Origin: a bacterium
GTDB lineage: Bacteria > SZUA-79 > Acidulodesulfobacterales > Acidulodesulfobacteraceae
Length of the DNA stretch: 58,876 nt
NCBI GenBank assembly: GCA_021777135.1
Contig: JAJYDX010000009.1
Location: 1-58,876, forward strand
Direction: 5' to 3'
In this document: positions 5,964 through 58,598 of the stretch, one piece after another
How the letters are laid out: every line of letters starts with the position of its first letter
Numbering within the stretch: the stretch's first letter is position 1
Made by a program: the position numbers and the translations under genes
Notes under the pieces: generated by a model
What the model saw: only the letters and a program-made list of their open reading frames with translations
What the model was told of the DNA's origin: nothing
Databases searched by the model: none

Positions 5964-7733
5964 TTAATGAGTAGTTTTAACATTAAGATATGGCAGAATT
6001 TCCTCAAGCGAAGTTAAGCCCGTGAAAAATTTTTCCTTTGCTGAATCGGACAAAGTTTTCATACCTTGCGATAAAGCGGTTTTCTCCAATTCCGATTCAG
6101 TAGCGTTATTATTTATAAGTTCTTTAATATTTTCGTTTATATATAACATTTCATATATGGGTATTCTGCCTTTATAACCAGATTTATTACATGTAGGGCA
6201 TCCCTTTGCTTTATATAATTTTATATAGCCGTTATATTCATCCGCGGCAATACCCATTTTTTTTAAAGTTTCCACCGGAAGTTCTTCTTTGCATTCCAGG
6301 CAAAGTTTTCTTATTAGTCGCTGGGCAATTACAAGATTGAGGCTCGATGCTATTAAAAAAGGTTCTATTTTCATGTTTACCAGCCTAGTAATAGTTGAAA
6401 CGGCATTATTGGTGTGCAGCGTTGAAAGTACTAAGTGTCCCGTTAGAGCTGCTTGAATTGATATTGATGCCGTTTCATTATCCCTTATCTCACCTACCAT
6501 TATTACGTCAGGATCCTGCCTTAAAAACGATCTTAGCGTTTCGGCAAAGTTAAAATAAACGTTTGTTTTCTCGTTTTTAAGTTTTTCATTTACCTGAACC
6601 TGATTAATTCCAGGAAAATCATATTCTATTGGATCTTCAGCGGTAGAAATATTTGAAAATTCGTTATTTAACTCGTTTAATATACAGTATAAAGTCGTAG
6701 TTTTACCCGATCCTGTAGGACCGGTAACCAATATCATTCCGAAAGGTTTATGTATGCATTCGTTAAGTAAATTTAAATGCGTTTGCGAGAAACCTATTTT
6801 ATTTATATCAAAAATAAGTGAAGATTTATTTAAGATTCTCATAACTATTTTTTCGCCGAATAAGGTAGGTATACAGGATACTCTTATATCGATTTCGCGT
6901 CCGCCTAAAGAAACAGTTATTCTTCCGTCTTGCGGAAATCTCTGCTCTGTTATATCAAGTTTTGCTATATTTTTTATACGCGCTATGATATTAGATTTTG
7001 CGGTAGGCGGGGTATTTGAATATTCGCTAAGCCTTCCGTCTATCCTGAATCTTATTCTCGAAAATTTTCTATAAAACTCTATATGTATATCGCTTGCGCC
7101 GCGTTCTACCGCATCGCCGATAACCTTATTGACGTATTTTTCTACCGCGCTAGCGCTGTTTTTATCTTTGCTTATATCACTGACGTCGTTTGATTCATCT
7201 ACTGTCTTAACTATATTGTCGGGGTTTTTAAATTTTTCAAGAAAAAAAGAAGCGTTATAATATTTAGACATTGCGTTTATTATCTGGGAATAGGGGGCAA
7301 CTGAATATACGGTCGGGATTCCGGTAATGAAAGAAATTTCATCTATTATATCGTTTCTTGTGGGGTCAGCGGTTGCTATGCAGAGAGTATTGTTTTCAAT
7401 TTTATAAGGTATGATGCGAAATCTTATGGCTTTTTCCGGAGGAATTATATTTATTATATTTTTTGGAATTTCTATATCATTTATATTAATTTTATTTAAA
7501 AAAAAATATTTTGCCAGGAAATCAGGCAGTTCACTTTCATTTAGCTTGCCTTCGTCGATAAGTATTTTTATTAAAGGTCTTGCAGGCAGGCTTTCCATGC
7601 TTACGGCTGATTCAAAATCATTCCTGGTAATTAAAGAATTTAATACCAGAACCTCGCCTAGTTTATAGTTTTCGTCCTTTCTTGGCACCGATAATTTTTT
7701 ATTTTCTTCCGTTTTATTTGATAAAGAAGCCAT
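5964..7733 (-). CDS. GspE/PilB-type secretion or pilus assembly ATPase
   Basis: This is a cytoplasmic hexameric ATPase of type II secretion or type IV pilus machines. The N-terminal region (about 23-160) has the LGEVLVLNSLI...LIKILIDEGKL pattern of MshEN/GspE_N domains; MshEN domains bind c-di-GMP. The C-terminal motor has Walker A GPTGSGKTTTLY, the Asp box, Walker B with VGEIRDNETA and the His box LHTNNA. The zinc-binding tetracysteine is CLEC...CPTC, followed by GYKGRIPIYE. The length of 589 is normal. No other pilus or secretion genes are adjacent. The globin-coupled HD-GYP gene at 9263 could link it to c-di-GMP. Confidence 0.88.
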   Translation of the reverse strand: MASLSNKTEENKKLSVPRKDENYKLGEVLVLNSLITRNDFESAVSMESLPARPLIKILIDEGKLNESELPDFLAKYFFLNKININDIEIPKNIINIIPPEKAIRFRIIPYKIENNTLCIATADPTRNDIIDEISFITGIPTVYSVAPYSQIINAMSKYYNASFFLEKFKNPDNIVKTVDESNDVSDISKDKNSASAVEKYVNKVIGDAVERGASDIHIEFYRKFSRIRFRIDGRLSEYSNTPPTAKSNIIARIKNIAKLDITEQRFPQDGRITVSLGGREIDIRVSCIPTLFGEKIVMRILNKSSLIFDINKIGFSQTHLNLLNECIHKPFGMILVTGPTGSGKTTTLYCILNELNNEFSNISTAEDPIEYDFPGINQVQVNEKLKNEKTNVYFNFAETLRSFLRQDPDVIMVGEIRDNETASISIQAALTGHLVLSTLHTNNAVSTITRLVNMKIEPFLIASSLNLVIAQRLIRKLCLECKEELPVETLKKMGIAADEYNGYIKLYKAKGCPTCNKSGYKGRIPIYEMLYINENIKELINNNATESELEKTALSQGMKTLSDSAKEKFFTGLTSLEEILPYLNVKTTH

Positions 7734-7875: not shown

Positions 7876-9249
7876 ATGATTAATGTTGATATGAAACTGC
7901 ATAGACATATTCTCCTTTCAGATATTCAAGAACAAAAGCTTTTTGTTCTTCTTAAAATAAATCCAGTTGAAGATATAACATTTAAAAGACAGCCTTTTCG
8001 TATTGTTTTTGCAGTCGATACTTCAGGCTCTATGAGAGATTACACAGATACAGATAAAAAATGCGATGAACTAATTAATGAAAGTTCAGTGGCATTACCA
8101 AAAAAAACTAAAATAGACGTTTTAGTAGAATACTTAATAAATTTATTTGATTCGCAAATTTTTAAAAATGGCGACAAATTAGCCATAGTTCAATTTAATG
8201 ATGCCGCAAAAGTTTTAGTACCTTTCACAGATGCAGAAAATAAGGAAGTATTAATAGATGCCGTAAAAAATTTAAAAGAATGCAGCGGTGGAACAAATAC
8301 TGGGTTAGCAATGAAGACGGCATTAGAACTTTTTTCAAGAGAAAATGGCAATGGCAAAATGTTTCTTCTTACGGATGGAATAACTTTTGACGAAGATTTG
8401 ACTTTAGAAATGTCCGAAGAATTTGCAAAAAATAAAATACCTGTGATTACCATAGGCATAGGGAACGATTGGAACTTTAATTTTATTAATTTATTGGCTG
8501 ACCGCACAGGCGGGAAAGTTTTATATGCCCTTTCCGATAATGGAAATGCCGTTTATCCTCCATATATTAAAGGCGGAGAATTAACGAACGTGCTTATTTC
8601 AGAACTAAATCGTTCTGCCGATGAGATATTTACAAATATAATTTTAAATATTAATACCATCAAGGGTGTCGATATAAAACGCATTTCTAAAGTTTATCCG
8701 GTTCAAACGGAACTAAACTTATCTCGAAAGCCATATTTGCTTGGAAACGCGGAGGCCAGAGATATTACGGTATTTTTAATTGAAATATCGGTTTTCCAAA
8801 ATAGTGCCGGAAAAGTTCGTTTGGCGCAATTTAACTTGACTTATGAAGTAGGAGGCATACCATACAGACAAGAAGGTCCTATTATTGACGTAACGGCAGA
8901 ATTCGTAAAAGAATACGACCATAGTTTAAATTTAAATATAGATAATGAAGTTATGCAATACGTGCAGCAAAGAAATTTAAGCTCGATGGCTGATAGAATT
9001 TCGGAAGAATCAAAGACCAATATTAATAAAGCGGTGGAAATTTTGAAAGCAGCCATGCAAAGCGTTGGTGTAATAAATAATATTCCGGTAATGAGCGTTT
9101 TAAATAATGCCGTCAATGAACTTAAAAATAAAAAAACAATAAGCGAAAGCACTTTAGCCGCATTAAAAGTTGGCGTTAAAACTCACACTATAAAATATGG
9201 CCAGGAAATTTTTACAGACGAAGAAATTAAAAAAATAACGGGAATATAA
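7876..9249 (+). CDS. VWA-domain protein, first paralogue
   Basis: A 457-residue cytoplasmic protein with no signal peptide or membrane segment. After a ~40-residue N-terminal strand region comes a von Willebrand factor A domain (about 41-240) with a complete metal-binding MIDAS: DTSGS (48-52), a GGTNTG threonine and LLTDG. The C-terminal half has a beta-rich segment and then a helical tail around VMQYVQQRNL. It is clearly homologous to the VWA protein at 10702-12039, with the same domain order and the same MQ-VQQRN motif. VWA proteins of this kind often sit with PP2C phosphatases and Ser/Thr kinases (TerY-P-like triads), as here. The ligand is unknown. Confidence 0.88.
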   Translation: MINVDMKLHRHILLSDIQEQKLFVLLKINPVEDITFKRQPFRIVFAVDTSGSMRDYTDTDKKCDELINESSVALPKKTKIDVLVEYLINLFDSQIFKNGDKLAIVQFNDAAKVLVPFTDAENKEVLIDAVKNLKECSGGTNTGLAMKTALELFSRENGNGKMFLLTDGITFDEDLTLEMSEEFAKNKIPVITIGIGNDWNFNFINLLADRTGGKVLYALSDNGNAVYPPYIKGGELTNVLISELNRSADEIFTNIILNINTIKGVDIKRISKVYPVQTELNLSRKPYLLGNAEARDITVFLIEISVFQNSAGKVRLAQFNLTYEVGGIPYRQEGPIIDVTAEFVKEYDHSLNLNIDNEVMQYVQQRNLSSMADRISEESKTNINKAVEILKAAMQSVGVINNIPVMSVLNNAVNELKNKKTISESTLAALKVGVKTHTIKYGQEIFTDEEIKKITGI

Positions 9250-9262
9250 GAAACCATTTAAA

Positions 9263-10444
9263 TCAATCGATAGTTTGATCAATTGATTTTTTTATCTCGA
9301 TTATTTCTTCTATGCCTTTAAGAAATGCGTAAAAACAATCAGGGTCGAAACTTTTGCCTGGCACCATTTCTTTTTCCATTATTTCTATTGCTTTTTTAAT
9401 AGATAAGGAAGGCTTGTAGCATCTTTTACTGACTAACGCGTCAAAAACGTCAGCAATCTTGCAAATCCTTCCTTCTATGGGAATTTCTTCACCCTTAAGA
9501 CCTAGAGGGTATCCTTCGCCGTTAAAGTCTTCATGATGGGATCTGGCAATAATGGAGCCGTCTTTTAAAACTGGCGAACTTGAATTTTTTAGAATTTCAT
9601 ATCCTATATTGCAATGGGTTTTCATTTTTTCAAACTCCTGCTCCGTAAGTTTTCCCGGTTTTAATATAATTTCATCTGGAATTCCTACCTTGCCTATATC
9701 GTGCATTGGACTGGAGTAAAATATTTTTTCTTGAAACAGCTCATCCATTCCGATATTTTTTGCTATTACTTTAGCATAATTAGAAACTCTTGCAATATGG
9801 TCGCCGGTTGCGGCGTCTTTATATTCAGCAATAGTCATGAGCCTGCTTAGCGATTCCTGCTCCATTTTATAATAATCATCCATAGATTTTTTGTAATAGG
9901 ATTCTATGGCAAATGTATTATCTACCGCTAATTTTTTTTGAATTGAATTTGCCGCTTTTAAAGTGCTTATTAAATTAAGTCCTTTTTTTTGGGAGCATTT
10001 AAATATAAATGAGGAAACAAGATTGTTATAATAGCCGTATATCGCTATGTATAAAGAAGGTGAAATGCCAAATATATTATGCGCCAAACCATCTGCTATT
10101 CTATTTTTATAATAACCGTCATCATAATTAAATTCGAACAGGGATTTCAGATAATATATATTGCTCAGTTTTAGCTGTTCAACTAATTCCTTATCTATGT
10201 CCACATTTTCTTTAATGCCGTCTTCCCCGGTAATTCTTGAGTATAATAATTCCGATATTTCTTCGAAATATTCCTCCATACAATTTTTTATGGCTTTAAT
10301 ATTTTCTATATCTTCATTTCCGAAATTTATTGTATTTTCTATAAGCTTCACATGTTGCTCTTCCGTAAGTTTGTCAAGCATGCTTGCGCCTTTAGCCGAT
10401 ATCCCGCAATCTTGTAAAACTTTCTTAAACTTATCCTTATCCAT
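9263..10444 (-). CDS. Globin-coupled HD-GYP phosphodiesterase
   Basis: A probable haem-regulated c-di-GMP phosphodiesterase. Residues about 40-160 match globin-coupled sensor/protoglobin domains: YYLKSLFEFNYDDGYYKNRI, then H122 as the likely proximal haem ligand in GLAHNIFGISPSLY. Residues about 200-385 form a full HD-GYP domain with HDIGKVGIPD (H248, D249), THCNIGYEIL, HHEDFNGEGYP (303-313) and RICKIADVFDAL. There are no membrane segments, so it acts in the cytoplasm. It is encoded antisense between two VWA genes, 13 bp beyond the end of the first. Activity modulated by O2, NO or CO is inferred from the family. Confidence 0.85.
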   Translation of the reverse strand: MDKDKFKKVLQDCGISAKGASMLDKLTEEQHVKLIENTINFGNEDIENIKAIKNCMEEYFEEISELLYSRITGEDGIKENVDIDKELVEQLKLSNIYYLKSLFEFNYDDGYYKNRIADGLAHNIFGISPSLYIAIYGYYNNLVSSFIFKCSQKKGLNLISTLKAANSIQKKLAVDNTFAIESYYKKSMDDYYKMEQESLSRLMTIAEYKDAATGDHIARVSNYAKVIAKNIGMDELFQEKIFYSSPMHDIGKVGIPDEIILKPGKLTEQEFEKMKTHCNIGYEILKNSSSPVLKDGSIIARSHHEDFNGEGYPLGLKGEEIPIEGRICKIADVFDALVSKRCYKPSLSIKKAIEIMEKEMVPGKSFDPDCFYAFLKGIEEIIEIKKSIDQTID

Positions 10445-10701
10445 ATTGTATAAAACCTATTTGTATTATATTAATATGAAGATACAAAAATAATAAACTT
10501 ATAATATTTATATTATATTATAAATATTATAAATAATAATAAAATAAATTAAAAATTTGCATATTATAAATGATTATTATAAAATTTTTAAAATGATATA
10601 ATTATTATTAAGGAATATATATAAATCTTTTAAACAATAATTTAAAATCAATTTAATTTTATCCGCTAAATTTATTAATTAATTATTTTCGGAGAACGAT
10701 T

Positions 10702-12039
10702 ATGGCAAAAATGTTTGACGTAAAAATTATTCCTCATAGAAATTATTTAATGGCTGACACTCCGGATCAAAAGCTATTTATAGAATTAAAAATTTATTGT
10801 GAAAATAAGACGTCTTTAAAATCTTCCCTTGCCGTGGTTTTTGTCGTGGATACTTCAGGGTCAATGAGGGAGGTCACCGGCGGAAATTCTAAAATAGGCA
10901 TATTGATAAACGGATTAAAAAATATAATAAATTCTTCTAAATTAAAAAGTACTGACAGGGTAAGCATTGTTAAATTTGACGATACGGCAAAAGTTATTCT
11001 TCCTTTAATTAATGCAGAAGATAAAAACAAGAACGTTATAAATTCGGCAATAGAAGATCTAATGAACTATAGCGGAGGCACAAGCATGGGTGCTGGACTA
11101 AAGGAAGCTTTCGACTTAATCTCCCATGAAAAGGCTAGAAAAAGAATTATTATGCTTACTGACGGTCAGACTTCCGACGAAGATTTAACTAGAGAGGTAT
11201 CAGGCTTATTGGCTAAAGAAAATATACCTGTAACCGCTATAGGGATTGGCGAAGAGTGGAATGAAAATTTAATTACTTATATTACGGACCAAACCCAAGG
11301 CAAGCCTTTTTATGCAGTAACGGATGATTCCAAGAGCATAGCGTCTTTAAACATTGCCGTTAATTCTACGGAAATACCGGATATAATGATAAATGAGCTT
11401 GAAAGTGCCGTAAATGAAACCATTACCGGTTTGTCTTTGAGCATAAATGCTGCTAAAGATGTAATTATAGATAAAATTACCAGAGTTTACCCTGAAGTAT
11501 CGGAAGTAAACTTAGCCGTAAAACCGCATTCTCTTGGGAATATAAGCGCGGAAGGAGAAATGGTTTTTATAATAGAGGCTACTTTACCAGAACGCAATCC
11601 CCTAAAATCAAGGCTTATGCAATTAAGCTTGACATACGATGTGCCGAATGAAGATTATAGAGGCGAAAATCCTCCTGAAGACGTTATAGTTGAATTTACG
11701 GTCGACGAGTTGCAGGCCTCTTCTATAAATCAGGAAGTAATGCAGTGGGTGCAACAAAGAAACGTAGGGTCTTTATTAGAAAGGGCTATAGCCGAATCTT
11801 CCCAAAGTCCTGAAAACGCAGCTAAAACGCTAGATATGGCAAGACGCATGACTTTAAAAATAGGAAACGGCGTAATGTCTAAACTAATAGAAAAAGCCCA
11901 GAACGAAATAAGAGAAAATAAAACACTCAGCCTTGGAATGTCTAAAACACTGAAGATAGGCGCTAAAACTAAGACAGTTAAAATAGATGGCGGAGAGGGC
12001 ATTTCTGACGAACAAATAAGAAAAATGACCGGCGTTTAA
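10702..12039 (+). CDS. VWA-domain protein, second paralogue
   Basis: A 445-residue cytoplasmic VWA protein. MIDAS elements are DTSGS (50-54), the YSGGTSMGAGL threonine region and IMLTDGQTSDED. The N-terminus (HRNYLMADTPDQKLFIEL) and the C-terminal helical tail (EVMQWVQQRNVGSLLERA) parallel those of the VWA protein at 7876-9249, which indicates duplication. A clear GGAG ribosome site lies 7 bases before the ATG. It is followed on the same strand, after 128 bp, by the PP2C fusion and then the kinase. A role as a metal-dependent adaptor or substrate of that kinase/phosphatase pair is inferred from similar gene triads. Confidence 0.88.
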   Translation: MAKMFDVKIIPHRNYLMADTPDQKLFIELKIYCENKTSLKSSLAVVFVVDTSGSMREVTGGNSKIGILINGLKNIINSSKLKSTDRVSIVKFDDTAKVILPLINAEDKNKNVINSAIEDLMNYSGGTSMGAGLKEAFDLISHEKARKRIIMLTDGQTSDEDLTREVSGLLAKENIPVTAIGIGEEWNENLITYITDQTQGKPFYAVTDDSKSIASLNIAVNSTEIPDIMINELESAVNETITGLSLSINAAKDVIIDKITRVYPEVSEVNLAVKPHSLGNISAEGEMVFIIEATLPERNPLKSRLMQLSLTYDVPNEDYRGENPPEDVIVEFTVDELQASSINQEVMQWVQQRNVGSLLERAIAESSQSPENAAKTLDMARRMTLKIGNGVMSKLIEKAQNEIRENKTLSLGMSKTLKIGAKTKTVKIDGGEGISDEQIRKMTGV

Positions 12040-12167
12040 CAAGCAAAAAATAGGCTTGCGGAATAAAAATATAGATTTTTCGCGGTGCTAAATATGCCGA
12101 CGATAAAAAATTTTGCCAGGCGATGCTTTCATTTAAAGCAATATAATAAAATATATTTCGATATAAT

Positions 12168-13700
12168 ATGAAAACAACTTCTGTGGTTCCAGGTCCTGGT
12201 GACGTTTTGAACGTCAAAGGAATTAATATATCGATAAAGCAGCCTTATATTGGAAATTGGTATAAAGCTGAAAAAATAGATGGAGAGGAGGTATTGTATT
12301 CAAATGGAAATTGGAGTTTATGGAAAAACGCTCCTCAATTCTCCTTGCTCCCAAAAATATTAGCTTGTTCTGAAAACGATATAATAATTGATATTGTCAA
12401 AGAATGTGACTCAAAATTAGAATTTAAACCTTCTCTTAAAAAAGAATATATCGATTTAATTATTTATGGACTTGCTGAAATAGCAGAGATTATTAAATAT
12501 TTTAACGATAAAAAAATATCCGTTTTATATATTAACCCGGATTCTTTATATTTATGCGACGGTAAATTGCTATTAAATTTATTGCCGGATTTATGTGAAA
12601 TAAATAAAACGACGTTTTCGTCTAAGGATTTCGTTGCGCCAGAAGTTTTTAGACATGAAAAGGCAACAGGAAAAGAAGGGGTATTCGTACTTGGAGCGTT
12701 AATCGTTAAATTATTTACCGGAGAAACTATAAATTCATACGAAAACGAGACTAATATCGCAAATTATATCGCAAATATAAATATTCCTGGTATTCCTCAA
12801 TTTATTGCTAAGACACTTACAAGTGCCGAATACAGATTTACGCCTTCTGAAGCGGCAGATTATTTAAAAAGTATAATTGAAGAAAGAAAACTCCCAGTTA
12901 AGTTCGATGTGGGCATGTCTTCATCTGTCGGGTTAAACGAAGACAGGGCTATAGACGAAGATAGTTGCGGTTTTGCCATAGAAAATGTTTTAAATTCTAC
13001 CGGAAGAAGTTTATTAATGCGTGCATGTCTTGCAGACGGAATGGGAGGGATGACTGCCGGTGATGTTGCCAGCAAAGCGGCGGTAGAGGGCTTTTTAAAA
13101 AATACAGCGAATAGCTTTCAAGAAATAAACGGTTTAGCCTTGGACCTTGCATGGCAGGCAAACGATAACGTTTTTAAGTGTTTGGGTGGGAAAGACGGAG
13201 GATGCACTTTTATTGGCATTGTTTTTAAAGATAATAATTTTGCGCTTGCACATGTAGGCGATTCAAGAGCATATATATTTAAGACTTCTGAAAACGAATC
13301 AAAATTTATCTGCCTTACTAAAGACCATTCTTATGTAGCTCTTATGGTGTCTAACGGAAATATGACAGAAGAAGAAGCAAATAATAGTCCCGATAGGAAT
13401 AAAATTTTAAAATCTCTCGGTTCCGTTAGAAACAGACAAGAAGGCTATATAGACGACTTACAAAAAACTACAGGAAAAAAAACAGAAAATTTAGAAAAAG
13501 GAGATATGCTTATATTAGTTTGCGACGGCATATGGTCTGAAATAACCGACGGAGATTTTAAAAAAATTTTAAACGCCACGGGAGATAAATTAAATATTAA
13601 TGCGGATTCTCAATATATAGCCGATATTTTAGTTGATACCGCTATAAAAAACGGTGGAAGAGATAACGCATCCGCTCTTGTAATTAAAAGAATTTCTTAA
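12168..13700 (+). CDS. Pseudokinase-PP2C phosphatase fusion
   Basis: A 510-residue cytoplasmic protein. Residues about 25-240 keep the outline of a protein kinase fold: a VLYINPDSLYL segment where HRDxKPxN should be, LLPDL for DFG, FVAPEV for the APE motif, and VFVLGALIVKLFTGE for the helix after it. The catalytic Lys, HRD Asp and DFG Asp are not recognisable. Residues about 245-510 form a PP2C (PPM) phosphatase with NED at 257-259, LADGMGG (289-294), HVGDSRAY, LVCDG and GGRDNAS, so all main metal-binding acidic residues appear to be present. It lies 11 bp upstream of the Ser/Thr kinase gene, so it probably dephosphorylates that kinase or its targets. Confidence 0.86.
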   Translation: MKTTSVVPGPGDVLNVKGINISIKQPYIGNWYKAEKIDGEEVLYSNGNWSLWKNAPQFSLLPKILACSENDIIIDIVKECDSKLEFKPSLKKEYIDLIIYGLAEIAEIIKYFNDKKISVLYINPDSLYLCDGKLLLNLLPDLCEINKTTFSSKDFVAPEVFRHEKATGKEGVFVLGALIVKLFTGETINSYENETNIANYIANINIPGIPQFIAKTLTSAEYRFTPSEAADYLKSIIEERKLPVKFDVGMSSSVGLNEDRAIDEDSCGFAIENVLNSTGRSLLMRACLADGMGGMTAGDVASKAAVEGFLKNTANSFQEINGLALDLAWQANDNVFKCLGGKDGGCTFIGIVFKDNNFALAHVGDSRAYIFKTSENESKFICLTKDHSYVALMVSNGNMTEEEANNSPDRNKILKSLGSVRNRQEGYIDDLQKTTGKKTENLEKGDMLILVCDGIWSEITDGDFKKILNATGDKLNINADSQYIADILVDTAIKNGGRDNASALVIKRIS

Positions 13701-13711
13701 ATATCATAAAT

Positions 13712-15409
13712 ATGATAATTTGTCCTTATTGTTCTTCTTCTATAGCCGAAAACTTAAAAATATGTCCTGTATGCGGAGGTAGTTTAGATATTGCCTATCC
13801 CACCTGCGAGCCCCTTTCTGAGGGAAGCGTTATTAATGAAAAATATAGAATCGAGAAGGTTTTAGGAAGCGGAGGTTTTGGCATAACTTATCTTGCCTAT
13901 GACGAAAAGTTAGACAGAAAAGTTGCGGTTAAAGAATATTTTCCTGACGGAGTTGCTACAAGAACCGGCAATAAAGTCACTATACCTCCCACTCTTGATA
14001 ATAACGAAAATATTCAAGGTTTTAAAAATGAAGCAAAATCCATTGCGAAATTAAGAAATCCTGGCATAGTCAACGTTTACGATGTAATAGAAGAAAACGA
14101 TACGGTTTATATTGTTATGGAGTATATAGAAGGCGAACCGTTTTCCTCGCTACTTGGAAAAATAGACGAAAAAGCAGCCGTGAAATATATGAGGCACATT
14201 GCCGAGGCGATAGGTTACGTTCATATTGCGGGACTGCTTCATCAGGATATTAAACCGGAAAATATAATACTCACCAAAGACGGAATCGTTAAAATTATAG
14301 ATTTCGGTTCTTCGAGAGTATTTGCCGCTGATAAGACCAAGACCTACGAAAAAATATTAACGCCGGGTTATGCTCCTTTGGAACAATATGGAGGGAGAGG
14401 CAAAAGAGGCGAATATACTGATGTGTATGCAATTTGTGCTACGCTTTACGCTCTATTAAAAGGTTTTCCTCCTCCAGAATCTACCGAGCTGGCAGGCGGT
14501 GCTGAGATAGATTATTCCGGAATAAGCGAAAATTTAAAAAATATTCTTAAAAAAGGGTTGTCTGTTAAAATTCCGGAAAGAATACAAAATACTTTAAATT
14601 TAATTAAACTTTTTGACGAGTTAGACGGGTCTGATAATAAAATTATAGGACAAGCAACCCAAAACACTGCCGTATATGATGGACTTAATAAAAATGAAAA
14701 TATTGATACGGAGCTAGATAAACATGATATAGAAACGTCCTTAAACAACGTCAAAAATAGCGGCATACAGGCTCAGGCTAATAAGGAAGGTTATTCAAAT
14801 CATAGTAAAAAAAGCATAACGTCTTTTTTTTCTATCTTCTTAGTTATTGCAGCAGTTTTGTCTCTAATTGCGGCGACTTATATATATTATCCTTATATCT
14901 TGAATATTTTTAAAGGATTCACTGGTGAATCTATGAATAAAACAAAATTAAAGGAATCGATGATAAATAAAAAAAATATAAAAAATGAAAATAACAAGAA
15001 AAGTAAAGAAACAAAAAGCATTAACGTTAACGCTAATGCTTCTGAAACTTCCAAAACATATACGAGTAACCATAGTGCCGCTTTATCTAAACCCTTGCCT
15101 CATCCGCATTATATTAGGCAAAGACCGGTTCCCCAAATAGTTCAAGCACCGAGCATTTTCAGAAGCAGCCCTAATGTATTTCACGGTCAAGGCTATAAGG
15201 ACTTTAGCATATCGGGATGTTTTTACTGCCATATTATTTACGGCAAGGGGAGCAAAAACGGAAGTAATCTTTCACATGTAGGTTCGCAATTAAGTTTGCC
15301 CCAGATAGAAAATAAAATAACCCATCCCAATTCTTCTATGCCTCCTAATCCGAATATGCCTACTCAGGAGGTTGAACAAATTGCCGGATGGCTTGAAAGT
15401 TTAAAATAA
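13712..15409 (+). CDS. Transmembrane Ser/Thr kinase with N-terminal zinc ribbon and C-terminal cytochrome c domain
   Basis: A 565-residue protein. Domains in order: zinc ribbon (C4, C7, C18, C21); Hanks-type kinase (about 45-305) with GSGGFG (52-57), K74, E107, HQDIKPEN (D179, N184), DFG (197-199) and an APLEQYG activation end; a charged linker; one membrane helix (about 371-393); a Lys/Asn-rich then Pro-rich linker; and a C-terminal ~65-residue class I cytochrome c-like domain. That domain has CFYCH at 503-507 and SSMPP (M543) as the probable distal ligand, ending in the typical helix EVEQIAGWLESL. Topology puts the kinase inside and the haem domain outside, where c-type haem is attached. 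This fits a redox or gas sensor kinase. I do not know of a described kinase with this architecture. Confidence 0.85.
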   Translation: MIICPYCSSSIAENLKICPVCGGSLDIAYPTCEPLSEGSVINEKYRIEKVLGSGGFGITYLAYDEKLDRKVAVKEYFPDGVATRTGNKVTIPPTLDNNENIQGFKNEAKSIAKLRNPGIVNVYDVIEENDTVYIVMEYIEGEPFSSLLGKIDEKAAVKYMRHIAEAIGYVHIAGLLHQDIKPENIILTKDGIVKIIDFGSSRVFAADKTKTYEKILTPGYAPLEQYGGRGKRGEYTDVYAICATLYALLKGFPPPESTELAGGAEIDYSGISENLKNILKKGLSVKIPERIQNTLNLIKLFDELDGSDNKIIGQATQNTAVYDGLNKNENIDTELDKHDIETSLNNVKNSGIQAQANKEGYSNHSKKSITSFFSIFLVIAAVLSLIAATYIYYPYILNIFKGFTGESMNKTKLKESMINKKNIKNENNKKSKETKSINVNANASETSKTYTSNHSAALSKPLPHPHYIRQRPVPQIVQAPSIFRSSPNVFHGQGYKDFSISGCFYCHIIYGKGSKNGSNLSHVGSQLSLPQIENKITHPNSSMPPNPNMPTQEVEQIAGWLESLK

Positions 15410-15450
15410 TTTATAATTTAATGTATTTAATAATTAAAAAAGGGGTTAAT

Positions 15451-15978
15451 ATGAAAAAGAAAAATTTTATTTTTTTAAAAATGTTAATTTTAGCTCAGGT
15501 TTTTATTGCCGCAATTTTTGCTTTCAATGCATCAAATTGTTATGCGCAAGTCGGCAACACTTTAAAAAAAATGCAGATTCAATATCATATGAAAAGAATT
15601 TCGATAAGTAAATTGTATTTATTAGAGCCTAATCTTTCGCAGTATAATTATAAAAACTCAAAGGTAATGGCTTTTGAATATACTTTAAATAAAGTTAAAT
15701 ACGAAGCAGTTTTTAACGCTTCCGGGGTATGCTGGATGGAATTTGCGGTCGCCGACAGTTCCACGGTTATACCATTAAGCGCTTTAATTCAAAAAAATCT
15801 TTACGGATATCCGATTTTATTCAAAACTTTAAAATACATACCAAACGAATACGAAAAACTACAATACGGAAGGAATATCGGGAAAGTAATTTATATTATG
15901 CAATATATTTATGAAAATAATTCAATATTGCAGGAAGCCGTAATGCCTTCAATGTCGCCAGACGGCAATTATTATTAA
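15451..15978 (+). CDS. Small exported protein of unknown function
   Basis: Not recognised. I start it at the ATG at 15451, which has an AAGGGG ribosome site and begins directly with a lysine-rich signal peptide; an upstream in-frame ATG at 15421 would add an unlikely 10 residues. The signal peptide runs to about residue 31 (CYA), leaving a mature protein of about 145 residues. It has aromatic-rich strands, one Cys-Trp pair (GVCWMEF) and a Gly/Tyr-rich end. It follows the cytochrome-kinase gene by 41 bp and ends at a strong terminator, so it is probably the last gene of the signalling operon. A periplasmic partner of the kinase is a guess. Confidence 0.7.
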   Translation: MKKKNFIFLKMLILAQVFIAAIFAFNASNCYAQVGNTLKKMQIQYHMKRISISKLYLLEPNLSQYNYKNSKVMAFEYTLNKVKYEAVFNASGVCWMEFAVADSSTVIPLSALIQKNLYGYPILFKTLKYIPNEYEKLQYGRNIGKVIYIMQYIYENNSILQEAVMPSMSPDGNYY

Positions 15979-16079: not shown

Positions 16080-16829
16080 TTATGGCAGTAAATTTGCAAT
16101 TGAATGAGCCATCTGTTGTTTTAATAAAGGTTCGGCTGATGTGAATACGAGGTTCATTGCCGATGCCTGAGACACTATCCTATCCCTGTATATAGCCCAA
16201 TTTTTTATGCCGGAGTTGTAGGTTGTAATATTGCTTGCAGTGCCTTGGCTTGCATTTGTGGAATTCGTAGTGTAAGTTCCAGCCTGTCTTTGTTCGAGCT
16301 GGATGTCAACGACCATCATATAGTTTTTGTTTTGAAACAATGAACCGATGATACCGCCAGCCAGTGCGCCAAGCGCGCCGCCTGCCACCATCGAGGTCCC
16401 TGAGTTATATCTCGAGCCTGCAAAAGCGCCGCCGAAACCGCCTGCTAAAGCGCCTGCGACGGTATAGTTGTTAGATTCTACCCCAATATATAGTATATTG
16501 GACATAAGCATAAAATTGGCTTCCTGAGGATTATTGGTTACTCTGTAGCCTTCGCTTATTAAGGCTGAAGTAAGTTCGTTTCTAAAATTAAGCCCCGTAG
16601 CCGTGGAAGTGTTTCTTGTACTTACATATACAATCTTATCCTGTGGAGCAACAGGTTGCAGGAATATGCTGGAACTCATTTTAGTGCTCAATGCGACGTT
16701 GCCGGACGAAAGGCCGCTTGCACTTGTTGTTGGACCTGCCGTAGTGGCGCATCCCGAAAAAGCAATGGCCGGTAGAAGAAAAAGCACAGTCAAGGCAAAT
16801 AGTTTAAGCTTTGAAACATTATAATGCAT
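16080..16829 (-). CDS. TraT-like complement-resistance outer-membrane lipoprotein
   Basis: A 249-residue lipoprotein. The start at 16829 is chosen because AAGGAGG lies just upstream and the signal peptide begins at once; a longer frame to 16868 is unlikely. The lipobox is AFSGC. The mature protein has the TraT-family features: a strand region with VYVSTRNTS, then EANFMLMSNILYIG, then a glycine-rich double hydrophobic segment (GALAGGFGGAFAGS...GGALGALAGGIIGSLF), then MVVDIQLEQR. TraT is known from F plasmids, but chromosomal homologues are common in Gram-negative bacteria and nothing here suggests a plasmid. The role in this organism is unknown. Confidence 0.85.
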   Translation of the reverse strand: MHYNVSKLKLFALTVLFLLPAIAFSGCATTAGPTTSASGLSSGNVALSTKMSSSIFLQPVAPQDKIVYVSTRNTSTATGLNFRNELTSALISEGYRVTNNPQEANFMLMSNILYIGVESNNYTVAGALAGGFGGAFAGSRYNSGTSMVAGGALGALAGGIIGSLFQNKNYMMVVDIQLEQRQAGTYTTNSTNASQGTASNITTYNSGIKNWAIYRDRIVSQASAMNLVFTSAEPLLKQQMAHSIANLLP

Positions 16830-16923
16830 TTGATAACCTCCTTGTTTGAATTTATAAAATAAACCCATTAAAATATAAGGCGATTTAATTATATTTTATC
16901 ATAATTCCAATATTCTTTATTTA

Positions 16924-54571: not shown

Positions 54572-55702
54572 ATGGGTCGCATATATAATAAAAATATGAA
54601 AGCACGTAGGTTAATCGGATTTAATATATACTTATCATATATTCTTATATTCATGATTGCGGGTACTATATTTCTTTCAGGCTGTAGCAATCATGTCGCC
54701 AAAAATAACAAGAGTAGTACTTTAACAACTTCTAAAATTACACTTAAACAAAATGACAATAAAAACAATATAACCAGTCTAACGTTTAAAGTCGGAACCG
54801 AACCTACCGCAATTGCTATAGACGGTTTGGGCAATATATGGGTTGTTAATTCTGGAAGCGAAGATATTACAAAGTTGAATAATAAAGGTGCGCTTATAGG
54901 AACTTACGCTGTTCCATATATATCAGGTTTTAAATCACTAAATAGCACTATAGCTATAGATTCCTCAGGTAATGCGTGGGTTATAGACAACTTCAGTCTT
55001 GTAAAAATAAATCAGGCAGGTGCTGCAACTATATATGGGAAGTCTATAGAAAAACCAATAGTTGCCAGTTCTGGTGGTATAGCAATAGATAGTCTTGGAA
55101 ATATATGGGTTACGAGTACGAGCAGTATCATTAAAGTATATTCTAATGGTATTCCTGTTACTGGCATGCCTGGCTATAAAGCTGGAATTAATGTCTCTAA
55201 ATTATCAATTGATTCTTCCGGCGATGTTTTTGCTGTTAATTCAGGTGTTAATACTATTACTAAATTAAATTCAGATGGCATTATAATAGGCAAATATAGG
55301 GTTATTCCTTCGGCGGCATTTTTAACGCCTTCATCTGGTATGGCCATAGATAAATCAGGTAATGTTTGGCTGGGAGGCGGTTTTAAAAATGTTGTTATAA
55401 AATTAAGCCGGACTGGCGTCTTAATAGGAACATATGCAGTAGGAAATGAACCTAATGCAATTGCGATAGACGCTTCCGGCAACGTTTGGGTGGCTAATGA
55501 GGGAAGCAATAACATTATAGAACTAAATCCTTCAGGTGCGCTTATTGGAACGTATTCCGTTGGACACGGCCCAGATGCAATTGCGATAGACGCTTCCGGC
55601 AATGTTTGGGTTGCTGACGGAGGATTAGACGACGTTACCGAGTTAATAGGCGCGGCTAAAGGTCCGCAATATTTCCCTTACAAAGGTCCTCAGTGGCCAT
55701 AA
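54572..55702 (+). CDS. NHL/Vgb-like beta-propeller lipoprotein, first copy
   Basis: A lipoprotein of up to 376 residues (or 368 from the ATG at 54596, which begins nearer the signal peptide). The lipobox is FLSGC. The rest is a propeller made of repeats built on 'PxAIAIDASGNVWVANxGSNNI-ELNxxGxLIGTYxVG', as in streptogramin-lyase (Vgb)-like and NHL proteins. The last repeats are the most regular. It would lie in the periplasm or on the outer membrane. Parts of the DNA are shared exactly with the next gene (see repeat at 55455). Ligand unknown. Confidence 0.8.
   Translation: MGRIYNKNMKARRLIGFNIYLSYILIFMIAGTIFLSGCSNHVAKNNKSSTLTTSKITLKQNDNKNNITSLTFKVGTEPTAIAIDGLGNIWVVNSGSEDITKLNNKGALIGTYAVPYISGFKSLNSTIAIDSSGNAWVIDNFSLVKINQAGAATIYGKSIEKPIVASSGGIAIDSLGNIWVTSTSSIIKVYSNGIPVTGMPGYKAGINVSKLSIDSSGDVFAVNSGVNTITKLNSDGIIIGKYRVIPSAAFLTPSSGMAIDKSGNVWLGGGFKNVVIKLSRTGVLIGTYAVGNEPNAIAIDASGNVWVANEGSNNIIELNPSGALIGTYSVGHGPDAIAIDASGNVWVADGGLDDVTELIGAAKGPQYFPYKGPQWP
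55455..55498. repeat. 44-bp exact repeat shared by two propeller genes, copy 1
   Basis: Encodes the NAIAIDASGNVWVAN-type propeller motif. The 44 bases are identical to 55924-55967 in the next gene, including third codon positions. A third copy at 55574-55617 differs at a few bases. Confidence 0.85.
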
Positions 55703-55766
55703 ACGTCAATATTAATGCTATATCATTACAATTAACATATATTATTTATTATTAAAAACTTTGTTT

Positions 55767-56891
55767 ATGAAAAGATTAAGCTTATATTCATTTTTAAGAA
55801 CAGTAATCCTTTTATTGTTTGTTTTAGTCGTTTCGTCTGTTTTATCTAGCTGCCAAAATAAAAACGCTGATAAAGCTCCAAGCGGTGTTAAAACTAGAAC
55901 ATTTAAAGCCGGAAAGGAACCAGATGCAATTGCGATAGACGCTTCCGGCAACGTTTGGGTGGCTAATAAAAAAAGCGACAATATCATGAAATTTAATCAA
56001 AAAGGCGTTGTTATAGGAACTTATAATATCGAGAAAGAACTAAAATGGGTAGAGAAAGAACAAATGGTCGTGGTAGGGGGTATTTCAAGAGGCGATTTTA
56101 TAGGCAAGGTAAAAGCAAGTAATAACAAGGCTTTTCTTTATCCAAGCGCGATAATTATAGGTCGCTCAGGTAGCGTCTGGGTAGCTGATCGCGGCGGCGA
56201 TTTTAATATTATTAAATTAAGTCTTTCCGGTGCGATAGAAGGCAAATATAACACGGCAAAATGGCTGAACTTAAACAAATTTGCATTGGGCGGTCTTATG
56301 CCGGTCGGTATAGCCTTAGATGCCTCAGGCAACGTTTGGACGGCTAACTATGGCGGTGAAAATGTATCTAAACTAAGTAGAAACGGGTCTCTTATAGGGG
56401 CATATAAGGTCGGAATAGCGCCGAAGGCGATAGCGATAGACGCATCAGGCAACGTTTGGGTGGCTAATTATTTTAGCGGTAATATTTACAAGTTAAGTCA
56501 TGCAGGCTCTGTTGAGGGAATTTATTATATAGGGGGAAGCATAGACGGGATGGCTATAGACCCATCAGGCAATGTATGGGTTACGGGCAGTGGCGGCGTC
56601 GTAAAATTAAATCCTGCGGGAGCTATTATAGGACGCTATAAGGATTACTCTTCCGCTATCGCTATAGACGCTTCAGGGGATGTCTGGACGGCTGCCGATT
56701 GGGGGAATACCGTTACTGAATTGAACTCTAACGGTGCGGTTTTGGGCGTTTATAAAGTTGGGTTTTCTCCCAAGAGTATCGCTATAGACGCTTCAGGGGA
56801 TGTCTGGACGGCTAACTTTGGCAGCAACAATATTACTGAATTAGTCGACGCGGCTAAGGGCCCGCAATATTATGCGCAAACGGCTCCGTAG
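55767..56891 (+). CDS. NHL/Vgb-like beta-propeller lipoprotein, second copy
   Basis: A 374-residue lipoprotein starting at ATG 55767 (a TTG two codons earlier is less likely). The lipobox is VLSSC. The propeller repeats have the same consensus as in the upstream gene, with a longer insertion (about 95-125) after the first blade. Both proteins end in the same tail, ELVDAAKGPQYYAQ versus ELIGAAKGPQYFPY, which supports tandem duplication. A protein- or ligand-binding role outside the cytoplasm is likely; the target is unknown. Confidence 0.82.
   Translation: MKRLSLYSFLRTVILLLFVLVVSSVLSSCQNKNADKAPSGVKTRTFKAGKEPDAIAIDASGNVWVANKKSDNIMKFNQKGVVIGTYNIEKELKWVEKEQMVVVGGISRGDFIGKVKASNNKAFLYPSAIIIGRSGSVWVADRGGDFNIIKLSLSGAIEGKYNTAKWLNLNKFALGGLMPVGIALDASGNVWTANYGGENVSKLSRNGSLIGAYKVGIAPKAIAIDASGNVWVANYFSGNIYKLSHAGSVEGIYYIGGSIDGMAIDPSGNVWVTGSGGVVKLNPAGAIIGRYKDYSSAIAIDASGDVWTAADWGNTVTELNSNGAVLGVYKVGFSPKSIAIDASGDVWTANFGSNNITELVDAAKGPQYYAQTAP
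55924..55967. repeat. 44-bp exact repeat shared by two propeller genes, copy 2
   Basis: Identical to 55455-55498. It lies in the first propeller blade of the second gene, 469 bp from copy 1, with the gene boundary between them. Recombination between the copies would make one in-frame-sized fusion gene only if frames agree. Confidence 0.85.
56657..56693. repeat. 37-bp repeat inside the second propeller gene, copy 1
   Basis: Identical to 56777-56813, exactly 120 bp (40 codons) away, which equals one propeller blade. It encodes an AIDASGDVWTA-type strand. Confidence 0.8.
56777..56813. repeat. 37-bp repeat inside the second propeller gene, copy 2
   Basis: Second member of the in-frame pair with 56657-56693; indicates recent duplication or conversion of a whole blade. 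Confidence 0.8.
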
Positions 56892-56972
56892 TCTAAATAA
56901 TATTTTGCACTTAGATTATTAATTTATATTTCTTAAATAATAAAATTATCCATTAAGAAAGGAGATAATATT

Positions 56973-58598
56973 ATGATAAACCATGTCAGAAAAATAAGAT
57001 TCTATAAGATAGAAATGTTAATTTCCGTATCGGCATTCTTTACGCTGTTTTTATTATTTAGTTGGATGCCGGCCGGATTAAATTTTAAGAGCGTCAGCGC
57101 TGCAGAGTTATCAGTCTTGAGACGTCCCTCTGTAATTTATACCAGTCCGAAAAATCGTTCAGGAGACATCCTTCTTAACTCTAAAGTTTCGGCAATATTT
57201 AATGAGGCGATGGACCGTGGCACCTTTACCCGTTTTTCTGCTTATGTGAAAAGACAGGGTGGATCCGCTGTTTCCGGAACTATAAGTCTTAACGCCGCAG
57301 GTTCTACCTTTACCTTTGTTCCCTCTAAAGCTCTTGCAACTGGAACCAGATATACCGTTACGTTCACAAGGAGAATCAAATCGGCGGGAGGTTTGCGCCT
57401 TTCTAGGAGATATTCGTTCAGTTTTACTACGGTAGGCGATTTTATCTACGCGGCACAGGGAAACGGGAGTGTTTCTTCATGGTCGGTTGACGGCGGGAGG
57501 CTTTCGCTTTCCAAATTAAGCGTCGTATCTGGGGAAGGAGCGGATTCCGTCGCCATAGACCCTTCTGGTAAATATCTTTATACAGCCAATTCTAATATGG
57601 GAACTGTCTCGTCATATTCTATTCATAACGGCGTGCTTTCGGGCAGACCGACAAGCGTGACGGAACGAAATTCAAGTTTTACCCCTTATCATTTAACTGT
57701 TGACCCTTCGGGAAAATTTATTTATGTTACTGACTGGAATAACGGCACCATATCATCTTTTTCAGTTGTTAAAGGAGTACTTTCGTCTAATCCCATCAGT
57801 GTTACGCCCCAGACGTCTTCAAACTTTAAAGGAGCGATAGATGTTATTGTAGATCCTTCCGGCAAATATCTTTACGCTGATGGAGGAACAGGGGATGCAG
57901 CTAGCGGATTTCAAAGCCTTTCCTCATATTCAATCAATAATGGCATGCTTTCTCCGCTAAGCAGCACCTCTAATTATTCATTGCAAAGCAGTGACATAGC
58001 GGAAAACGCGGAGTCTATCATTCAGTCCGGCAATTTGATTTTTGCTGCCGAGGACGGTTACGGTTACATATCTTCATACAGCGTTAAAGGCGGAATGGTT
58101 AAGTATACCGGAAATTCTACCGCTTACGATTCATCCGCAGCAGGAGAGGTCTTTTTGGCAGTAGATCCAAGCGGAAAGCATCTTTTTGCTTCTTATAATA
58201 ACCCTGGTAATATTGTGTCTTACAGCATAGGCAACAACGGAACATTAACTAAATTAAGCGAAACCTCAATTGGATACGGGCAGCTTGCAAACCCAAGTTA
58301 TATTATAGTAGATCCTTCGGGTAAATATCTTTACGTTACATATTATAGTACAGGCAACCTTTCTGCCTATTCAATTAAAAACGGAATGCTTTCGACAGAT
58401 CCGGTCAGCGAGATAGGAAACGCAAATGCGACGTTATCAGGAGATTACTCTTCAATAGCGATAACGCCGATGGTTTATCAACAACCCGTATGGAAGATAA
58501 GCCATGCATCTCAATTAAACAATGTTAATAACGGTGTGAATAATATAAAAAACAATGCCAAACCGGTTGTGAATTTTTTTCAAAATTTATTTAAATAA
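56973..58598 (+). CDS. Exported beta-propeller protein with N-terminal Ig-like (Big_5) domain
   Basis: A 541-residue exported protein. The signal peptide (about 1-44, ending VSAAE) is followed by a bacterial Ig-like SbsA/Big_5 domain (about 52-152; SPKNRSGDILLNSKVSAIFNEAMD...GTRYTVTFTRRI). A seven-bladed-type propeller (about 153-500) follows, with repeats 'VDPSGKYLYVTNxxxGTVSSYSIxNGxLS', as in YncE/lactonase-fold proteins. An Asn-rich helical tail ends it. GAAAGGAG is the ribosome site. Likely an extracellular or surface protein. The lactonase fold alone does not prove enzyme activity. Confidence 0.82.
   Translation: MINHVRKIRFYKIEMLISVSAFFTLFLLFSWMPAGLNFKSVSAAELSVLRRPSVIYTSPKNRSGDILLNSKVSAIFNEAMDRGTFTRFSAYVKRQGGSAVSGTISLNAAGSTFTFVPSKALATGTRYTVTFTRRIKSAGGLRLSRRYSFSFTTVGDFIYAAQGNGSVSSWSVDGGRLSLSKLSVVSGEGADSVAIDPSGKYLYTANSNMGTVSSYSIHNGVLSGRPTSVTERNSSFTPYHLTVDPSGKFIYVTDWNNGTISSFSVVKGVLSSNPISVTPQTSSNFKGAIDVIVDPSGKYLYADGGTGDAASGFQSLSSYSINNGMLSPLSSTSNYSLQSSDIAENAESIIQSGNLIFAAEDGYGYISSYSVKGGMVKYTGNSTAYDSSAAGEVFLAVDPSGKHLFASYNNPGNIVSYSIGNNGTLTKLSETSIGYGQLANPSYIIVDPSGKYLYVTYYSTGNLSAYSIKNGMLSTDPVSEIGNANATLSGDYSSIAITPMVYQQPVWKISHASQLNNVNNGVNNIKNNAKPVVNFFQNLFK

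Follow-up and report, generated by a model that had tools for sequence, protein, structure and literature searches.

A bacterial VWA, FHA, PP2C and kinase module resembling the archaeal Arn network, with a predicted cytochrome c tail on the kinase

The 58,876-nucleotide stretch analysed here (hereafter the window) is a contig, C70, from a 92-contig, 2.12-Mb assembly of an Acidulodesulfobacteraceae bacterium (GCA_021777135.1, contig JAJYDX010000009.1). It carries a signalling module whose core consists of VWA2 (a vWA-domain protein), a pseudokinase-PP2C phosphatase, a Zn-ribbon kinase that continues through one transmembrane (TM) segment into a cytochrome c domain, and a small exported protein (EXP). 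A gene for a Zn-ribbon FHA protein also belongs to the module in related genomes and in a second island on contig C12 of the same genome. We consider the chances about even that the module is a bacterial phospho-switch of Arn-like type whose kinase is controlled by a periplasmic c-type haem; its likely output is a secretion machine or type IV filament, of which a PilB-like ATPase is the possible target. The comparison covered 29 species of one family, beyond which the next-nearest genomes share only the domain level, and a wider profile survey covered 386 genomes. The genomes are assemblies, many of them incomplete, so absences are to be taken as soft.

The six open reading frames (ORFs) named by the initial annotation are all present and intact, and ORF, Pfam and motif analyses bear out its description of the region: two VWA proteins with intact metal ion-dependent adhesion sites (motifs DTSGS, GGT and TDG in both), a pseudokinase-PP2C, a cytochrome-kinase and an exported protein. 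The kinase has the glycine loop (GSGGFG), lysine (VAVKE), HxD (HQDIKPEN) and DFG elements of an active Hanks-type enzyme, and two CxxC pairs (residues 4-7 and 18-21) mark its N-terminal Zn ribbon. The PP2C protein keeps the metal-site motifs DGMGG, GDSR, CDG and DNAS; its N-terminal part, a degenerate kinase-like region with neither HxD nor DFG, matches Pkinase at 5e-5, which is below the cut-off. Three further elements were found beyond those first listed: a relic of the FHA gene, the intact island on C12, and a MshEN/PilB-like ATPase gene beside the module.

Gene order is well kept among the relatives. The succession VWA2, Zn-ribbon FHA, pseudokinase-PP2C and Zn-ribbon kinase-TM-cytochrome c, with EXP usually next in line, was seen on C12 and in G004, G009, G014, G016, G025, G027 and G029; the FHA gene is split into two frames in G009, and the kinase is split in G027. 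The C12 proteins are 61-77% identical to their window counterparts, the ATPase included, as if the whole unit had been duplicated together. In every locus that shows the upstream neighbour of the cytochrome-tailed kinase (11/11), that neighbour is the PP2C gene, and among these loci no kinase orthologue without VWA/PP2C neighbours was met. The proposal of the initial annotation, that VWA, PP2C and a kinase with a terminal c-type haem domain make up a signalling module, is thus supported. At L069:5252-6765 (G028), a large deletion has brought the start of VWA2 up against the cytochrome-encoding end of the kinase region, and two adjacent fragments lie beside EXP.

Outside the family, the VWA profile recovers full-length relatives in G278, G141 and G075 (1e-115 to 1e-117). 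The distant G075 has VWA, Zn-ribbon FHA, PP2C and Zn-ribbon kinase genes in the same order, with a kinase that ends in TPR repeats and with neither haem tail nor EXP; G278 and G141 have VWA, pseudokinase-PP2C and a kinase with Sel1 repeats. These arrangements indicate that the cassette is widespread and that it varies at the C-terminus of its kinase, where the present family has the TM-cytochrome tail. No kinase-cytochrome fusion from outside the family was among the matches listed in the 386-genome survey, and the three long cytochrome-bearing frames that were opened there are oxidase- or peroxidase-like, not kinases.

The Pfam cytochrome c match of the window kinase is weak (0.079), and that of the tail at L070 is above the cut-off (25.4 bits). 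The tails of 13 relatives have most of the domain in common, with invariant CxxCH (CFYCH in the window, CxYCH in the family) and SMPP, that is, the CxxCH and distal Met of a class I cytochrome c. The domain is regarded as real despite its Pfam score, because CxxCH is invariant in 13/13 and the orthologues are 70-82% identical over it. Between the window kinase and four orthologues, identity is 69-88% in the kinase and 70-82% in the cytochrome, falling to 7-28% in the cytosolic linker and 18-39% in the periplasmic linker; the haem tail is therefore about as conserved as the kinase, and the linkers are not. This conservation, the topology (kinase inside, one TM segment, cytochrome outside) and a ResB homologue for haem attachment on contig C71 of the same genome suggest that haem, presumably bound covalently, is the input. 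As candidate sixth ligand, the invariant Met favours a redox centre over a gas sensor, which speaks against the sensing of haem ligands on both sides of the membrane that was first proposed.

The tail is not confined to kinases. Its profile has 14 members at <= 1e-45, and the next matches, at 1e-16, are small soluble cytochromes. Kinases or kinase remnants account for 12/14; the other two proteins, 400 and 418 residues long (G003 and G023), are encoded behind GrpE and Hsp70 genes, together with TPR proteins. These sets (L070:3000-9281 in G003 and L071:2623-7298 in G023) comprise TPR, GrpE, Hsp70 and a coiled TM-cytochrome-tail protein whose N-terminal domain matches no Pfam family. In G003 the set occupies the very site of the window island, between ModA/MetA-like genes and TraT-MltG-BioB, and it too ends in EXP (76% identity). 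Within the lineage, the tail thus occurs in two contexts only, on the kinase or beside GrpE/Hsp70. Of 30 genomes, 12 have both EXP and tail, 2 have EXP only, 1 has the tail only and 15 have neither (Fisher p 1.7e-5, uncorrected for kinship, as are all co-occurrence statistics here). EXP has no sequence relative in the PDB, and its fold model is weak (pLDDT 58.5), with a best VIA Z of 4.5 in tied rows that include OsmE. At L118:9926-10462 (G002), which is the second island site, EXP stands without a kinase or Hsp70 module, flanked by an AmtB/GlnB pair on one side and by DUF1015-CcsA-ResB on the other.

A precedent for this exchange is found in the GAP1-N2 GTPase systems, in which kinase/PP2C/vWA and Hsp70/GrpE occur as non-overlapping alternatives (PMC7159879), supporting the view that the two cytosolic modules are interchangeable. 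There, one common component is served either by the set of Zn-ribbon kinase, PP2C and vWA or by that of Hsp70, GrpE and TPR proteins, and here the cytochrome tail and EXP take the place of that component; the present lineage is different, and no GAP1 GTPase, FNIII or EAD proteins were seen. The chaperone context also bears on another explanation, in which the tail would serve to monitor haem supply or the maturation of c-type cytochromes, with the kinase, or Hsp70 in its stead, sensing the haem loading of its own tail. The G004 island, at the second site, adjoins DUF1015-CcsA-ResB, the genes of system II cytochrome c assembly, and EXP in G002 has the same genes arranged around it. The window island, however, is not beside ResB, which lies elsewhere in its genome, and the invariant Met of the tail points to a completed, six-coordinate cytochrome; we hold a maturation check to be unlikely.

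The resemblance to the Arn network comes from the FHA protein and VWA2. In Sulfolobus, ArnC and ArnD phosphorylate the C-terminus of ArnB, ArnA (Zn finger-FHA) then binds, and PP2A reverses the modification; this phosphorylation controls the archaellum, the swimming filament resembling type IV pili (T4P) (PMC6509490, PMC12852372, PMC5300886). The FHA protein of C12 and the relatives has an N-terminal Zn ribbon and a C-terminal FHA domain, and the best PDB matches of its profile are ArnA (5a8i 9.9e-11, 8s05_C 1.8e-10), over ribbon and FHA alike; the next FHA protein, GarA (1.1e-6), is four orders of magnitude behind. The VWA Pfam matches of VWA2 are generic. Its predicted secondary structure and fold have a vWA domain inserted in a beta-sandwich and followed by a C-terminal helix bundle, as in ArnB, and the model matches 8s05, 5a8j and 4fx5 near full length. 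Foldseek gives 4fx5 at 1e-19 and ArnB (8s05_B) at 5e-17 over ~440 columns, and VIA-align 2 gives Z 24.6 over 319 residues for 4fx5 and Z 21.1 over 317 for ArnB. The first of these, 4fx5, is a bacterial structural counterpart of an ArnB paralogue (PMC6509490). The closest known relatives of the FHA protein by sequence, and of VWA2 by its modelled fold, are hence archaeal ArnA and ArnB and not TerY, although TerY lay outside the direct structural comparison.

The likeness extends to the set of parts: a Zn ribbon-FHA protein, a beta-sandwich-inserted vWA protein with C-terminal helices, a Hanks-type kinase and a phosphatase, with a type IV filament system as output, which is here only a possibility. 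There are also differences. Here one putative operon encodes the kinase together with a PP2C in place of PP2A, and a TM segment anchors this kinase in the membrane and joins it to the predicted periplasmic cytochrome c. VWA2 falls short of the Pfam ArnB_C model, and an assembly ATPase gene adjoins the module, whereas ArnA/ArnB genes are stated never to lie within T4P or archaellum loci (PMC4858521).

The initial annotation had likened the genes to the TerY-P triad, which also has vWA, PP2C and a Zn-ribbon kinase but carries the ribbon at the kinase C-terminus and lacks FHA (PMC11090510). Here the ribbon is N-terminal, the kinase C-terminus being cytochrome c, the operon originally included a Zn-ribbon FHA gene, the vWA protein is of the ArnB type in an ArnA/ArnB arrangement, a haem tail is present and there are no Ter or restriction genes. 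TerY-P membership is rejected on ribbon position and the FHA gene. A related explanation would make the island a TerY-P-like defence or stress cassette against metal, tellurite or phage, with the cytochrome as a mere membrane tether. Apart from the shared parts, it could appeal to the scores of the kinase with the PADLOC models PD-T4-6 and mad6 and to the conflict systems described in eLife in 2020, which hold both kinase/PP2C/vWA and Hsp70/GrpE variants (PMC7159879). The PADLOC matches, however, are only generic kinase ones, so a defence cassette is not identified from them; the ribbon is at the opposite kinase end, the FHA partner in the operon is ArnA-like, the module has no linked effector such as a nuclease or Ter protein, and a tether would have no need of such strong CxxCH and Met conservation. 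We therefore regard this explanation as improbable.

The threonine phosphorylation pathway of type VI secretion (PpkA/PppA/Fha) likewise combines a TM Ser/Thr kinase bearing an extracytoplasmic domain with a PP2C and an FHA protein, and acts on an assembly machine. The present module resembles it in these three components and perhaps also in its target. PpkA, listed with a C-terminal vWA (PMC1262709), differs from the window kinase with its cytochrome, and here VWA and FHA are separate ArnB/ArnA-like proteins.

In the window itself, the FHA gene is gone, with 9-11 residues of its Zn ribbon still readable (KYADDKKFC against KFTDDKKFC, and GAKYADDKKFC against GKKFADDKKFC). The relic is supported by tblastn values down to 1.4e-4 (200-base target) and by local DNA scores of 39 and 49 against shuffle maxima of 31 and 33. 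In G007, the closest relative, the FHA gene is present and broken by stops and frameshifts. Together with the split kinase of G027, the deletion remnant of G028 and the solitary EXP of G002, these losses could mean that the window copy belongs to a decaying accessory island and no longer signals. Yet the reading frames of the remaining window genes are open and their catalytic motifs complete, the kinase and cytochrome of the window and G007 are 88% and 82% identical though neither has an intact FHA gene, and an intact FHA copy stands on C12. Decay to the point of silence is, in our judgement, very unlikely.

The remaining VWA gene of the region, VWA1, is 41% identical to VWA2 and belongs elsewhere. 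It forms a convergent pair with a gene for a predicted globin-coupled HD-GYP phosphodiesterase, found only in G000, G001, G008 and G011 and paired in 4/4. By sequence, the window HD-GYP protein has the HD, HHE and GYP motifs and the globin domain, its HD-GYP part aligning with 4mcw at 3.2e-49; its GYP motif reads HHExxNGEGYP, with N in place of the D of HHExxDGxGYP. In G008 and G011 the pair occurs without any kinase module, and most genomes carrying the kinase module lack the pair. This distribution excludes the globin/HD-GYP gene from the kinase operon; VWA1 is its partner rather than that of the kinase, and the island is two modules side by side. Of the single signal system first proposed, the kinase module with its c-type haem therefore stands, and the grouping with the globin gene does not. 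One could still conceive of a single system in which the kinase outside the membrane and the globin/HD-GYP protein inside it sense haem ligands (O2, NO) and act together on the VWA proteins and c-di-GMP: neither haem protein is damaged in the window, the pair in G001 is only one gene (the ATPase) away from VWA2, and that neighbouring ATPase has a MshEN domain. Pair and module nonetheless occur apart, the cytochrome has a candidate Met ligand, and the c-di-GMP motif of the ATPase N-terminus appears degenerate when read by eye, making such a system quite unlikely. In the VWA1 relatives at L072:5780-6574 (G008) and L073:6037-6801 (G011), the vWA domain has been lost; what remains is the N-terminal ~40 residues together with the sandwich/helix part, and these genes are still convergent with the globin/HD-GYP gene. 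Within the source genome, a VWA1-like fragment lies at a contig end (L205:1-3000, C92), beside IS21-type transposase genes (IstA/IstB-like).

Adjacency, clade co-occurrence and the archaeal analogy point to the ATPase as output. Copies of the island type adjoin the island in 8 loci, and members of the ATPase clade (>=70% identity) occur in 7/12 genomes with the module and in 1/18 without it, the latter a pseudogene (Fisher p 0.0025, kinship uncorrected). In other proteins the MshEN domain binds c-di-GMP. The features of the window are collected in Table 1.

Table 1. Features of the island and its immediate surroundings in the window
Feature	Position	Strand	Evidence
MshEN/PilB-GspE-like assembly ATPase, island-type paralogue, likely associated	5964..7733	-	T2SSE 2e-134, MshEN 2e-15, Walker A present
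VWA1, ArnB-like vWA/beta-sandwich protein	7876..9249	+	VWA 1.5e-21, MIDAS motifs intact
Globin-coupled HD-GYP c-di-GMP phosphodiesterase (predicted)	9263..10444	-	Protoglobin 2.2e-16, HD_5 2.8e-33
VWA2, ArnB-like, vWA inserted in beta-sandwich, C-terminal helices, Thr-rich tail	10702..12039	+	VWA 2.5e-22
Relic of Zn-ribbon FHA (ArnA-like) gene	12090..12116	+	tblastn, local DNA scores against shuffles
Pseudokinase-PP2C phosphatase	12168..13700	+	PP2C 4.3e-11; Stp1-type PP2C 1.2e-38
Ser/Thr kinase with N-terminal Zn ribbon, single TM, periplasmic linker and cytochrome c at the C-terminus	13712..15409	+	Pkinase 6.6e-39
Kinase TM segment, residues 369-387	14816..14872	+	hydropathy 2.55 across 19 residues, sole such segment
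Cytochrome c domain, residues 489-565	15176..15409	+	CFYCH 503-507, candidate axial Met543
EXP, small exported protein of 175 aa with a signal peptide, belonging to no known family	15451..15978	+	66-85% identity in close relatives

The EXP frame opens at 15421, and the start given in the table, behind AAGGGG and directly after the kinase stop, is the better one. A scan for promoters and terminators gave counts close to the shuffled expectation. The island is adjoined by a gene for a TraT-like lipoprotein (PF05818, 9e-56; 16080-16868), near which no conjugation genes were noticed. Far from the island, at 54572-58598, three adjacent genes encode exported proteins that bear NHL/beta-propeller-like repeats; two of these proteins are clearly paralogous.

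Several observations weigh against the Arn-like, haem-gated reading. The FHA gene is lost from the window copy and broken in G007, and four genomes of genus g2 hold the module or a remnant of it without an adjoining ATPase. The confidence of the VWA2 model is modest (pLDDT 65.8), and other vWA proteins reach a similar Z, mostly over the vWA domain alone (~180 residues); inter-alpha-inhibitor gives Z 22.6 over 257 residues in VIA-align 2. Pfam ArnB_C (PF18677) is unmatched in the VWA genes, the best score in the genome being 12.6 bits elsewhere against a cut-off of 26.3; VWA2 is accordingly taken to share the fold and proposed to work like ArnA/ArnB, and is not filed as ArnB. The Thr-rich tail of VWA2 is conserved, but its likeness to the ArnB tail is weak, since 3 to 202 of 1000 shuffles equal it; with such mixed results, a match to the ArnB phospho-tail is suggestive only.

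In the Arn-like switch that we favour, a c-type haem on the kinase C-terminus would read the redox state of the periplasm, or of a partner such as EXP, and the haem state would set kinase activity across the single TM segment. By analogy with ArnB, the kinase may phosphorylate Thr residues in the VWA2 C-terminus, whereupon the FHA protein, which for the window system could be supplied only by the paralogous C12 island, would bind phosphorylated VWA2 and alter the complex; PP2C would reverse the modification. Established Arn work makes this direction of control, phosphorylation of VWA2 by the kinase and reversal by PP2C, the most likely one. The output would probably be a secretion machine or type IV filament with the dedicated PilB-like ATPase encoded beside the module. 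The fuller proposal, in which an Arn-type switch gated by the kinase's own periplasmic cytochrome c controls this ATPase, and tail and EXP form a reusable sensor for either a kinase/phosphatase or a Hsp70/GrpE module, is tentative, and we would not expect it to hold in every part.

To our knowledge, inputs have been established for only a minority of bacterial Hanks-type kinases. A conserved domain with predicted covalent haem across the membrane would provide such a kinase with a defined and measurable candidate input, redox state, and the neighbouring VWA, FHA and PP2C genes would provide defined candidate substrates. Regulation of the ArnA/ArnB kind, known from the filaments of Sulfolobus, would thereby be placed in bacteria, beside an assembly ATPase, and within this family one haem tail is common to two unrelated cytosolic modules.

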